Below, piece after piece: positions 7,461 to 9,878 of a stretch of 64,000 nucleotides of DNA. Numbering within the stretch: the first letter of the stretch is position 1; each line of letters opens with the position of its first letter. Source of the DNA: Candidatus Kirkpatrickella diaphorinae (GTDB lineage: Bacteria > Pseudomonadota > Alphaproteobacteria > Acetobacterales > Acetobacteraceae); NCBI RefSeq assembly GCF_025736875.1, contig NZ_CP107052.1, positions 248,001 to 312,000 on the forward strand. Reading direction: 5' to 3'. The notes beneath the pieces were generated by a model. The model was not told the origin of the DNA and ran no database searches. It saw only the letters and a program-made list of their open reading frames with translations. A program made the position numbers and the translations under genes.

Positions 7461-7700
7461 TAATGTATAAACTCCGATCAGCCGAAGCTGATATTATGGC
7501 AGGCCTGGCCAACACAGACGGGGCGCAGGCGATGGGTGATAAAAACCTCTCCGGAGCCATACGAGCAAGGACGTGCGCCTTGACCGTGACGGGGCGTCGC
7601 GACATGTCCAGCATCGTGACGCACGCGTGCGGCTGCATCCGGTGATGCAGTCCATCGGGTGAGGCACAGAGCGCGAGACGAGCCAAAATTTGCCAGCTCC
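7461..7700 (-). promoter_or_regulatory. Structured 5' leader of rne
   Basis: Read on the rne strand, a hairpin ATCAGC-TTCG-GCTGAT (7477-7492, C-UUCG-G tetraloop) ends 1 nt before the CGGAG ribosome-binding site (7472-7476) of rne. Further upstream are a 7 bp hairpin with a 4 nt loop, CTGCATC/GATGCAG (7633-7650), and a perfect 10 bp palindrome GCACGCGTGC (7621-7630). A TATAAC box lies at 7705-7710 on the same strand but without a good -35. Enteric rne is feedback-controlled through hairpins in a long 5' leader; that this leader works the same way is inference. Confidence 0.5.
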
Positions 7701-8127
7701 AAAAGTTATAACCTTTTGCCGATCAGGCCGGGCGTCACAACCCATTGAAAACCGCGTGGAATGCGGGGGTCGGACACGCAACCGATCAGATCGGCCAATG
7801 GAAGTCAGATGGCAGGAAACCCGGGGGATCGGTTGATCCGACCGCGAGGTTCAAACGCCGTTCTGAAACCCTTCCTTCCCCACAATGACTTAAATCGCTG
7901 CCTTTCGCAAGCAAGCTCTCGCTTTCGAGTCATATTCTTGCTGATCCTGCCTCATTTACGACTTTTTTGGAAAGTTATTTACGTGATTTTTTCGGTTCCG
8001 ATATCCTGCGCATTTGGGGCCGAGATGGCGACAAACCGCCCCCTGCCCTGTTTCCGGTCCTTAAATTCTTTTTGTCAGACCATAATCACGCTGGTGCGGA
8101 AGCGAGATATCGTCTAACGTCCCCCGC
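7701..8127. other. Gene-free spacer between rne leader and leuA leader
   Basis: About 430 nt hold no convincing gene. It must contain the leuA promoter and probably the rne promoter. The segment 7940-8080 is relatively AT-rich with several T-runs and is the likeliest site of the leuA promoter. A CCGATC/GATCGG repeat lies at about 7782-7794. Short open frames cross the region but have no ribosome-binding site or recognisable product. No tRNA or known structured RNA was recognised. Confidence 0.5.
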
Positions 8128-8229
8128 ATGGTGCTTTCAGGCAAAATTTTTGGCTTATCATCCGTGGCGACCCTGCCATTGGTGCCGCATGCCTGCGCGC
8201 TTCTCTCGCTACGACTTATCTGCCCCTGA
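8128..8229 (+). CDS. Putative leucine leader peptide
   Basis: A 33-codon open frame contains eight Leu codons, with the run CTT-CTC-TCG-CTA-CGA-CTT near the end (8200-8217); rare TTA and CTA codons are included. Its stop codon lies inside the 5' arm of the hairpin at 8223-8265, and leuA begins 77 nt downstream. This is the layout of amino-acid biosynthesis leader peptides, where ribosome stalling at scarce Leu-tRNA controls folding downstream. Weakness: no clear ribosome-binding site precedes ATG 8128, and no other in-frame ATG is present. Assignment is by composition and position only. Confidence 0.45.
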   Translation: MVLSGKIFGLSSVATLPLVPHACALLSLRLICP

Positions 8230-8279
8230 GCATGGTGGCCGTCTCACGGCCTTGATGCGCAGGGGGTATTTGTCGTTTT
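8223..8279 (+). promoter_or_regulatory. Probable leuA attenuator structure
   Basis: CCCCTGAGCAT (8223-8233) pairs with ATGCGCAGGGG (8255-8265), 10 of 11 positions, and encloses a perfect inner hairpin GGCCGT-CTC-ACGGCC (8237-8251). A T-rich tail GTATTTGTCGTTTT (8266-8279) follows. The structure overlaps the stop codon of the Leu-rich leader frame and ends 28 nt before leuA. Which state terminates is not resolved: a ribosome at the leader stop would cover the outer 5' arm. Confidence 0.5.
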
Positions 8280-8306
8280 CAGCCTGAATTCAAGCGAGAG
8301 AAAATT

Positions 8307-9878
8307 ATGACCATCCAGCACCCTTCCTTTGGCGATATCTCTGAAAATCGTGTCATCATTTTTGACACGACCCTCCGCGATGGGGAGCAATCGCCCGGTT
8401 TTTCCATGAACCTCGATGAAAAGCTGCGCATGGCGCGGGCTCTGGAAAATCTGGGCGTCGATGTGATTGAGGCCGGTTTCCCTGTTGCGTCACCGGGTGA
8501 TTTTGAGGCGGTCAACGCCATCGCCAAAGCGGCGGAGGACGTTGTTGTATGTGCCCTTGCACGCAGTGGCGGCCCGCGCGACATCGCGGCGGCGGGTGAG
8601 GCGATCGCCCCCGCGCGGCGTAAACGCATTCATAATTTCATCTCCACCTCGCCGCTTCATATGAAATATAAATTGCGCATGACGCCCGAGACGGTGCTGG
8701 AGCTGATCGCTTCAGGCAATCGCGCGTCAAGGCAATTGTCGGATGATGTGCAATGGTCAGCGGAGGATGGCGCGCGGACGGAAATTGATTTCCTCTGTCG
8801 CTGCGTCGAGGTCGCGATCAGAAACGGCGCAACAACAATCAATATTCCGGATACGGTCGGGTTTTCAACGCCTGAGGAAATCGCCGCGATTTTCGAGACG
8901 TTGCGGCAACGCGTGCCAGGGGCGGAGAAAGTTATTTTCTCGACCCATAATCACAATGATCTCGGGCTCGGGGTCGCGAATTCCCTCGCCGCACTCACGG
9001 CAGGGGCCCGGCAGATTGAATGCACCATCAACGGGATCGGTGAGCGCGCCGGCAATGCGGCATTGGAGGAACTGGTCATGGCGATTCGAACGCGTCATGA
9101 CAAATTGCCCTTCACACATGCGGTACACACACCCTCATTGCTCGGCGTGTCACGACTGCTCACCGGCATTACCGGTTTTGATGTGCAGCCCAATAAAGCC
9201 ATTGTCGGGCGCAACGCCTTTGCACATGAGAGTGGCATCCACCAGGATGGCATCCTCAAAAATGCCGCGACTTATGAGATCATGACGCCGGAAAGTGTGG
9301 GCTGGACGAAATCCGCCCTCGTTTTGGGGAAACATTCCGGGCGCGCGGCTTTCCGGGATAAAGTCGCCTCGCTCGGTTACACATTGTCGGATGCGGAAAT
9401 CGAACATGCTTTTGCACGGTTCAAGACGCTGGCGGACCAGAAAAAATCCGTATTCGATGATGACATCATCGCGCTGGTTGGTGAGGAGAATCACCTTGAC
9501 GCGGCCATTCAGTTTGACGCCATCAAAGTGCAGTCCGGCTCTGAACGGGATGCATGGGTTGAGCTGACATTGACCGTGTCGGGCGCGCCCAAAACAGCTT
9601 CTGTCACGGGCAACGGGCCTGTCGACGCGGCCTTCAAGGCGATTGCGATGATCTGTGAGAATGACGCGCGCCTTGCGCTTTTCAGCGTTGCCGCCGTCAC
9701 GGGTGAAACGGATGCTCAGGCGAAAACGACGGTGCGGCTGGAGAAGAATGGCAGAACGGTCGATGGGCAGGGGGCGGATGTGGATACGATTGTCGCCGCC
9801 GTGAAGGCTTATGTGCACGCGCTGAACAAGCTGATGACGAAGGCGTCGCGCCGCGCGCCGACGGAGCTTTCCGCGTAA
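8307..9878 (+). CDS. leuA: 2-isopropylmalate synthase
   Basis: LeuA condenses acetyl-CoA with 2-oxoisovalerate, the first committed step of leucine synthesis, and is normally feedback-inhibited by leucine. The 523-residue protein has the TIM-barrel catalytic domain with FDTTLRDGEQSPGFSM near residue 13, the metal-binding STHNHNDLG near 212 and HESGIHQDG near 300, then the C-terminal LeuA regulatory domain (about 390-510), so it is the long, regulated bacterial form. GAGAGA precedes the ATG by about 7 nt. It is monocistronic here, preceded by the leader and hairpin described at 8128-8279; leuB and leuCD are not in the window. Confidence 0.97.
   Translation: MTIQHPSFGDISENRVIIFDTTLRDGEQSPGFSMNLDEKLRMARALENLGVDVIEAGFPVASPGDFEAVNAIAKAAEDVVVCALARSGGPRDIAAAGEAIAPARRKRIHNFISTSPLHMKYKLRMTPETVLELIASGNRASRQLSDDVQWSAEDGARTEIDFLCRCVEVAIRNGATTINIPDTVGFSTPEEIAAIFETLRQRVPGAEKVIFSTHNHNDLGLGVANSLAALTAGARQIECTINGIGERAGNAALEELVMAIRTRHDKLPFTHAVHTPSLLGVSRLLTGITGFDVQPNKAIVGRNAFAHESGIHQDGILKNAATYEIMTPESVGWTKSALVLGKHSGRAAFRDKVASLGYTLSDAEIEHAFARFKTLADQKKSVFDDDIIALVGEENHLDAAIQFDAIKVQSGSERDAWVELTLTVSGAPKTASVTGNGPVDAAFKAIAMICENDARLALFSVAAVTGETDAQAKTTVRLEKNGRTVDGQGADVDTIVAAVKAYVHALNKLMTKASRRAPTELSA

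Follow-up and report, generated by a model that had tools for sequence, protein, structure and literature searches.

In the leaders of erm genes, translational attenuation works through a stalled ribosome that exposes a hidden ribosome-binding site. For the branched-chain genes of alpha-proteobacteria, attenuators were reportedly predicted by Vitreschak et al. in 2004, in a collection that may list leu leaders. A further described system is the LEU element of Actinobacteria, named by Seliverstov et al. in 2005 (PMC1262725). As set out in the accessible portion of that paper, a run of Leu codons base-pairs with the ribosome-binding site of leuA and encloses an inner structure, a pseudoknot is described, and the element is reported in Actinobacteria only. 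The authors cite two observations, that changing the Leu codons in Streptomyces had been without influence on regulation and that mutations in the leuA leader had some effect, of a kind inconsistent with classical attenuation; on these grounds they favored a binding protein (PMC1262725).

We analyzed a stretch of 64,000 nucleotides from Candidatus Kirkpatrickella diaphorinae (hereafter the window), in which leuA, encoding a 2-isopropylmalate synthase of the TIGR00973 type, occupies positions 8307..9878 of the forward strand according to the ORF list and a profile match; all features described below lie on the same strand. Upstream of leuA, the ORF list and frame conservation delimit a leader ORF of 33 codons from ATG to TGA (8128..8229, encoding MVLSGKIFGLSSVATLPLVPHACALLSLRLICP and then the stop), whose start is putative; bearing on that start, Gluconobacter leaders have an ATG 10 codons ahead of the anchor CTT. 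Eight Leu codons fall within the frame (CTT, TTA, CTG, TTG, CTT, CTC, CTA and CTT), and the candidate regulatory run CTT CTC TCG CTA CGA CTT, delimited by frame comparison and by the sister species, spans 8200..8217 and closes with the conserved anchor codon CTT at 8215-8217. Comparison of leuA loci places the conserved core, CTACGACTTATCTGCCCCTGA, at 8209..8229, with the leader stop codon at its end. Neither a promoter for the leader nor, by eye, an evident ribosome-binding site before its start was recognized.

The stop lies in a conserved hairpin supported by folding and covariation, the 5' arm of which (8223..8233) holds TGA at 8227-8229 and pairs with a 3' arm at 8255..8265 in 10 of 11 positions, the exception being A8229 opposite G8259. 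Enclosed by this stem is an inner hairpin of 6 bp (8237..8251, pairing 8237-8242 with 8246-8251), whose sequence varies among relatives. Folding of 8128-8279 formed the hairpin with a z of -3.98. Past the stem stands a weak T-rich tail, GTATTTGTCGTTTT (8266..8279), which ends 27 nt short of the leuA ATG at 8307. The preliminary description of this region had reported the Leu-rich frame and its codon run, the stem with its inner hairpin and the stop in the 5' arm, and all of these are confirmed by the letters and, for the structure, by folding; the T-rich tail that it added is present, but its T-rich stretch (8267-8279) is weak, with 5 T in the nine nucleotides past the stem. Absent from that account was a further element recognized by complementarity, folding and permutation tests: the segment TTCTCTCGCT within the Leu codons (8201..8210) is perfectly complementary over 10 bp to AGCGAGAGAA (8293..8302), which overlaps the leuA ribosome-binding region. 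Folding of 8196-8330, which closes both the hairpin and this base stem, gave a z of -3.99, and none of 200 shuffled sequences was equally stable.

The leu leader of enterobacteria likewise carries a leader peptide with Leu codons ahead of leuA; unlike it, the window leader has its stop within a stem, and its relatives have no common U-tract. The earlier expectation that the switching logic would depart from the enterobacterial layout is supported. A search of 7500-9000 against Rfam 15, with E up to 10, returned no match to RF00512, the leu operon attenuator of enterobacteria, and gave three chance-level matches, none of them to a leader family; ten leader loci searched at the gathering cut-off gave no match. 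With the LEU element, as described in the 2005 paper, the window leader shares the position upstream of leuA, a short frame that contains a Leu-codon run, a base stem joining this run to the ribosome-binding sequence of leuA, and an internal structure. That element is described with a pseudoknot, whereas in the present leaders we find a hairpin with the stop in its arm by folding methods that are blind to pseudoknots. The window leader probably works like the LEU element and probably is one.

The conservation of the element was followed through two sets of loci obtained by LeuA similarity, one of 30 loci taken from matches in 53 of 60 genomes, and one comprising the best 80 of 568 candidate loci, including Asaia, Gluconobacter, Komagataeibacter and Acetobacter; at most 500 nt upstream were read for each leuA. 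The core CTTCGACTTA(T/G)CNGCCCCTG(A/G) was present upstream in 110 of 110 leuA loci, our own included, some of which represent the same genome twice, the distinct element sequences numbering 91. Its inner 15-base pattern was exact in 78 of the 110, and the other 32 lay within three edits of the full core. Covariance model R1, applied with strict filters to a sample of 289 genomes from the class, matched 75 of them and gave no match in two genomes of the organism's own family; among 398 genomes of the phylum it again found 75, all of them the organism itself or members of the same family or class. In its own genome there is one real copy; of the three other rows, one is an echo of this copy on the opposite strand (E 0.019), and the remaining two have an E of about 7-8. 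A LeuA-like gene lies downstream of the match in all 29 fetched class loci and in all 29 fetched loci of the phylum search, the own genome excluded in both cases; in about one third of the latter 29, this gene shares just 24-28% identity. Outside Acetobacteraceae, R1 matched Methylobacterium bullatum (E 1.5e-8) and Sphingomonas parapaucimobilis (E 2e-8), gave a weak match in Tistrella mobilis (E 0.015), and found none at the leuA of Sinorhizobium meliloti pSymB. Compared with plasmids at the DNA level, the leader had only weak, short matches (best E about 6). Among the matches listed from open PubMed Central papers, no description of an alphaproteobacterial leuA leader of this kind was found.

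The same leader also stands before an anciently diverged LeuA type, with 24-29% identity to that of the window, at ten loci. Four of these diverged proteins were tested and all matched PRK03739 best and TIGR00970 (leuA_yeast) second, two of them exceeding the cut-off of TIGR00970 and the other two, which are incomplete, falling below it. The leader was retained, or moved, across a leuA gene replacement.

For the analysis of codons and pairing, 106 leaders less than 85% alike were kept from 168 loci, the leuA start being uncertain at one leader locus (L134, TTG). Over the ten codons preceding the conserved CTT, the leader frame held 413 Leu among 1060 codons and the two other frames held 51 and 29, which bears out the conserved, Leu-enriched short frame that the preliminary description had proposed to look for across Acetobacteraceae. 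Among the Leu codons of the leaders, CTT occurs 197 times, CTC 120, CTG 73, CTA 16 and TTG 7; the first 300 codons of the leuA genes hold 2219 Leu codons, distributed as CTG 1446, CTC 468, TTG 186, CTT 76, TTA 32 and CTA 11. Leaders with spacers of at least 81 nt show 141 Leu codons of 340 in frame versus 17 and 8, and because the signal is equally strong there, it is not a by-product of pairing to the purine-rich ribosome-binding site. Counting the anchor as the first codon, the stop is the fifth in 83 of the 106 leaders (after Pro in 77, Leu in 5 and Arg in 1), follows P-W-A/M in 17, and is elsewhere or lost in 6. Because Leu is in such excess in one frame over the other two, the leader is, on this comparative evidence, translated and tuned to leucine. 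This conserved signal of a translated leader also supports the earlier suggestion that its Leu codons could sense the charging of Leu-tRNA.

Two nucleotide-level features of the core are not accounted for by coding. In 105 of the 106 leaders, an A comes directly after the anchor codon, CTT or CTA, although the residue encoded next varies (I, T, S, R, N or M). Of the 90 leaders that have Arg immediately ahead of the anchor (8212-8214 in the window), 89 encode it by CGA. CGA represents 7% of the Arg codons in the long ORFs of the window, and before the anchor it is possibly a built-in slow codon.

In most relatives, the hairpin reads CCCCUGA/UCAGGGG, one arm containing the leader stop. The check for covarying stems that had been proposed for these loci found the hairpin conserved, with two-sided changes at 4 of 9 pairs and a small covariation term (-0.61 kcal). 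The base of the stem varies while the stop is kept, as in CCCTTAG with CTAAGGG (6 leaders), CCCCTAG with TTAGGGG (4 leaders) and CCTCTGA with TCAGAGG (2 leaders). TGA is kept in 13 leaders where TGG would be the better pairing, and TGG stands opposite U, a wobble pair, in 14 leaders.

Several lineages carry variants of this architecture. In the AT-rich lineage of Commensalibacter and kin (four loci), the leaders are Leu-poor and have a hairpin followed by eight T, which looks, from its letters, like a proper intrinsic terminator. Four other loci hold a second copy of CCCTGAG just 3' of the hairpin, which could possibly pair with the 3' arm to give an alternative structure. Five Gluconacetobacter loci have a second hairpin, GCGGGAGC(A/C)ATCCCG, after the first one, and in long-spacer Gluconacetobacter a short CGGA...TCCG inverted repeat adjoins the GAGG of the leuA ribosome-binding site. 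Deletions in the core also occur: one core base is missing in the sister species, whose leader frame runs past the leuA start and ends 23 nt beyond its ATG, and the leader frame of one Asaia locus ends at a TGA overlapping the leuA ATG. These deletions, together with that at a second Asaia locus, would reflect either translational coupling or assembly error.

The relationship between the Leu codons and the leuA ribosome-binding region was evaluated by permutation. Covariation of the base stem counted on a MAFFT alignment was dropped, and permutation tests were used because that alignment misregistered the ribosome-binding side, by two columns in some lineages. Across the 106 leaders, cognate duplexes averaged -11.71 kcal versus -9.95 kcal for permuted ones, a difference reached in 0 of 5000 permutations, a count that, since the leaders are kin, is not an exact probability, as holds for all those that follow. 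The signal was strongest for spacers up to 55 nt (n=50; -12.72 versus -10.14 kcal, 0/5000), followed by spacers of 56-80 nt (n=22; -11.71 versus -10.17 kcal, 18/5000), and was weak at spacers of at least 81 nt (n=34; -10.22 versus -9.54 kcal, 212/5000). Within this last group, pairing was at chance in Acetobacteraceae (n=21; 1580/5000), and the non-Acetobacteraceae (n=13) gave 59/5000. Control segments from leader DNA further upstream and from the leuA coding sequence gave 1544/5000 and 1901/5000 over all leaders, the lowest control value being 310/5000, for leuA coding sequence in the long-spacer group. A leader's own partner ranked in the best 10% for 25 of the 106 leaders overall and for 14 of the 50 with short spacers. 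The spacer-length groups were chosen after an earlier duplex comparison had proved unimpressive: with 92 leaders from the first 110 loci and all spacers combined, the median locus was not significant. An earlier ensemble test, with boundaries that were partly misplaced and with one leader (L171) left out, agrees: short spacers gave 6.35 paired bases, compared with 3.39 after shuffling and 3.94 after swapping, and long ones gave 3.38, compared with 2.17 and 3.78. The base stem is also formed with different letters, GCCTCACC with GGTGAGGC in Saccharibacter and TCGTCTTA with TAAGACGA in Neokomagataea. As judged from these comparisons, the Leu codons and the ribosome-binding region of leuA have evolved together, most strongly at spacers up to 55 nt.

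We consider it fairly probable, on the basis of sequence comparison, that the window carries an alphaproteobacterial leader of the LEU type, where stalling of a ribosome at the Leu codons would free the start of leuA. The mRNA would begin before 8200, and the leader, coding by comparison with its relatives, would be read by a ribosome that slows on the CTT- and CTC-rich Leu codons when charged Leu-tRNA is scarce. With ample leucine, the ribosome would reach the stop in the 5' arm of the hairpin and depart; 8201-8210 would then pair with 8293-8302, with the hairpin between them, and the leuA start would be hidden. Under leucine shortage, a ribosome held on the Leu codons would keep 8201-8210 from pairing and leave the leuA start more open. 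Geometry and modeling suggest that the stop in the window, approximately one ribosome half-width past 8201-8210, would let a terminating ribosome leave this segment free for pairing. As in erm leaders, a stalled ribosome would by analogy open a hidden ribosome-binding site, whereas the signal would be a shortage of Leu-tRNA and not a drug, and the sensed codons themselves would, in the model, be the hiding strand. In the fold model of the window, the leuA binding region had a probability of 0.03 of being unpaired, both on ribosome-free RNA and when a ribosome stood at the stop; stalling at the Leu codons raised this to 0.21-0.33. The modeled effect fits in direction and is moderate in size. 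Over the 50 short-spacer leaders the modeled effect was small, with a mean of 0.44 when stalled versus 0.37 at the stop; the stalled value was the higher in 31 of 50, and the difference exceeded 0.2 in 10 and fell below -0.2 in 4. For long spacers, the corresponding values were 0.45 and 0.47. Acetobacteraceae with spacers of at least 81 nt have the same codons and hairpin, but their output would have to differ, and that of Commensalibacter would resemble a true terminator.

Other explanations of the locus need to be weighed against this mechanism. A chance open frame near an unrelated hairpin might be suspected from the Leu density, which by itself gives modest support to a leader: the probability of at least eight Leu in 33 codons is 0.014 at the Leu frequency of the window (0.10), and this density is reached by 3 of the 494 mechanical ORFs that are 25-60 amino acids long, the leader itself counted. 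This explanation is practically negligible, refuted by the presence of the element in all 110 leuA loci and in 75 of the 289 class genomes; the window leader is real because it is conserved across relatives, the lack of such conservation of frame and stem being what would have spoken against the preliminary description. That description had also called the structure attenuator-like, and transcription attenuation, in which the hairpin 8223-8265 and its T-rich tail would be an intrinsic terminator and a stalled ribosome would block the 5' arm, deserves attention insofar as the stop and the Leu codons are placed so that a stalled ribosome would cover that arm. The nine nucleotides past the stem contain 5 T in the window (GTATTTGTC), 6 in the sister species and 8 in Commensalibacter; over the 106 leaders, however, the mean T fraction in these nine positions is 0.23 against 0.17 across the spacer, at least five T are found in 12 leaders, and eight in two, both of Commensalibacter. 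The U-tract is thus missing in most relatives, and an intrinsic terminator as the class-wide output was rejected, a strong U-tract occurring in 2 of 106 leaders. A terminator scan called solely another site of 5 pairs (8250-8264), a number expected by chance, and no mutually exclusive antiterminator was recognized by eye in the folds. Transcription attenuation also leaves the coevolution of Leu codons and ribosome-binding region unexplained; we regard it as an unlikely account of the locus, and the hairpin is probably not a terminator in general.

A mixed device, in which transcription and translation would both be affected and lineages would have shifted the output, with a terminator in Commensalibacter and ribosome-binding pairing in short-spacer lineages, would fit one sensor occurring in three architectures; we hold this possibility to be rather unlikely. 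Nucleotide conservation, with A after the anchor in nearly all leaders and CGA before it, would also suit a site for a regulatory protein with the peptide being incidental, as proposed for the actinobacterial LEU element and argued in the accessible portion of PMC1262725. This is rendered quite improbable by the strong frame and codon-choice signal, which extends to long-spacer leaders, and by the retention of the stop codon in the stem through differing stems. The LEU-type mechanism itself has points against it: the Streptomyces Leu-codon mutations described as without influence on regulation (PMC1262725), the weak pairing at spacers of at least 81 nt, at chance in Acetobacteraceae there, and the small deletions that remove or shift the stop in the sister species and at two Asaia loci. 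The probabilities attached to the LEU-type, transcription-attenuation and mixed readings overlap, as these are not exclusive.

To return to the LEU-type leader, its actinobacterial side was surveyed through the actinobacterial records of a plasmid collection, which supplied six leuA loci. The core CTTAGCTGCC is common to 2 of 4 actinobacterial leaders, those of Nonomuraea and Microbacterium. In both, the alphaproteobacterial core matrix scores best where the Leu run ends, on CTTCTTAGCTGCC, a score reached by 0 of 500 shuffles in each case; in Nocardia and Tsukamurella the best core match falls at the same spot and is weak (22/500 and 50/500). The two Streptomyces plasmid leuA genes had no such leader, and R1 gave no match at E 0.5 or better against five actinobacterial loci. 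The Microbacterium leuA leader folds alike, its Leu codons being joined to the region of the leuA start by a stem of 10 bp; the folded stretch of Nonomuraea began past the Leu run, and the base stem lay outside it. These resemblances between sequences suggest common descent of the alphaproteobacterial and actinobacterial leaders. A wider and still tentative reading, toward which we lean less than toward its negation, is that Alphaproteobacteria and Actinobacteria share the LEU element as a ribosome-sensing device of ancient origin, whose Leu codons would themselves hide the leuA start, a single segment serving for both sensing and output; it would have been kept before the anciently diverged TIGR00973 and TIGR00970 types of leuA, and its nucleotide-level core CUUA(G/U)CNGCC would perhaps serve in ribosome pausing.

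A leader of a kind known from Actinobacteria is now found across Alphaproteobacteria. The 2005 paper on the LEU element left the mechanism open and proposed a binding protein (PMC1262725). To this the present analysis adds 106 diverged alphaproteobacterial leaders. These show a clear reading-frame signal and favor CUU codons, their stop is linked to the stem, and their codons coevolve with the ribosome-binding region. Not every leader hairpin should be read as a terminator. The alphaproteobacterial set makes the LEU mechanism testable in ordinary acetic acid bacteria, and the control of leucine synthesis genes may share its logic across two phyla.
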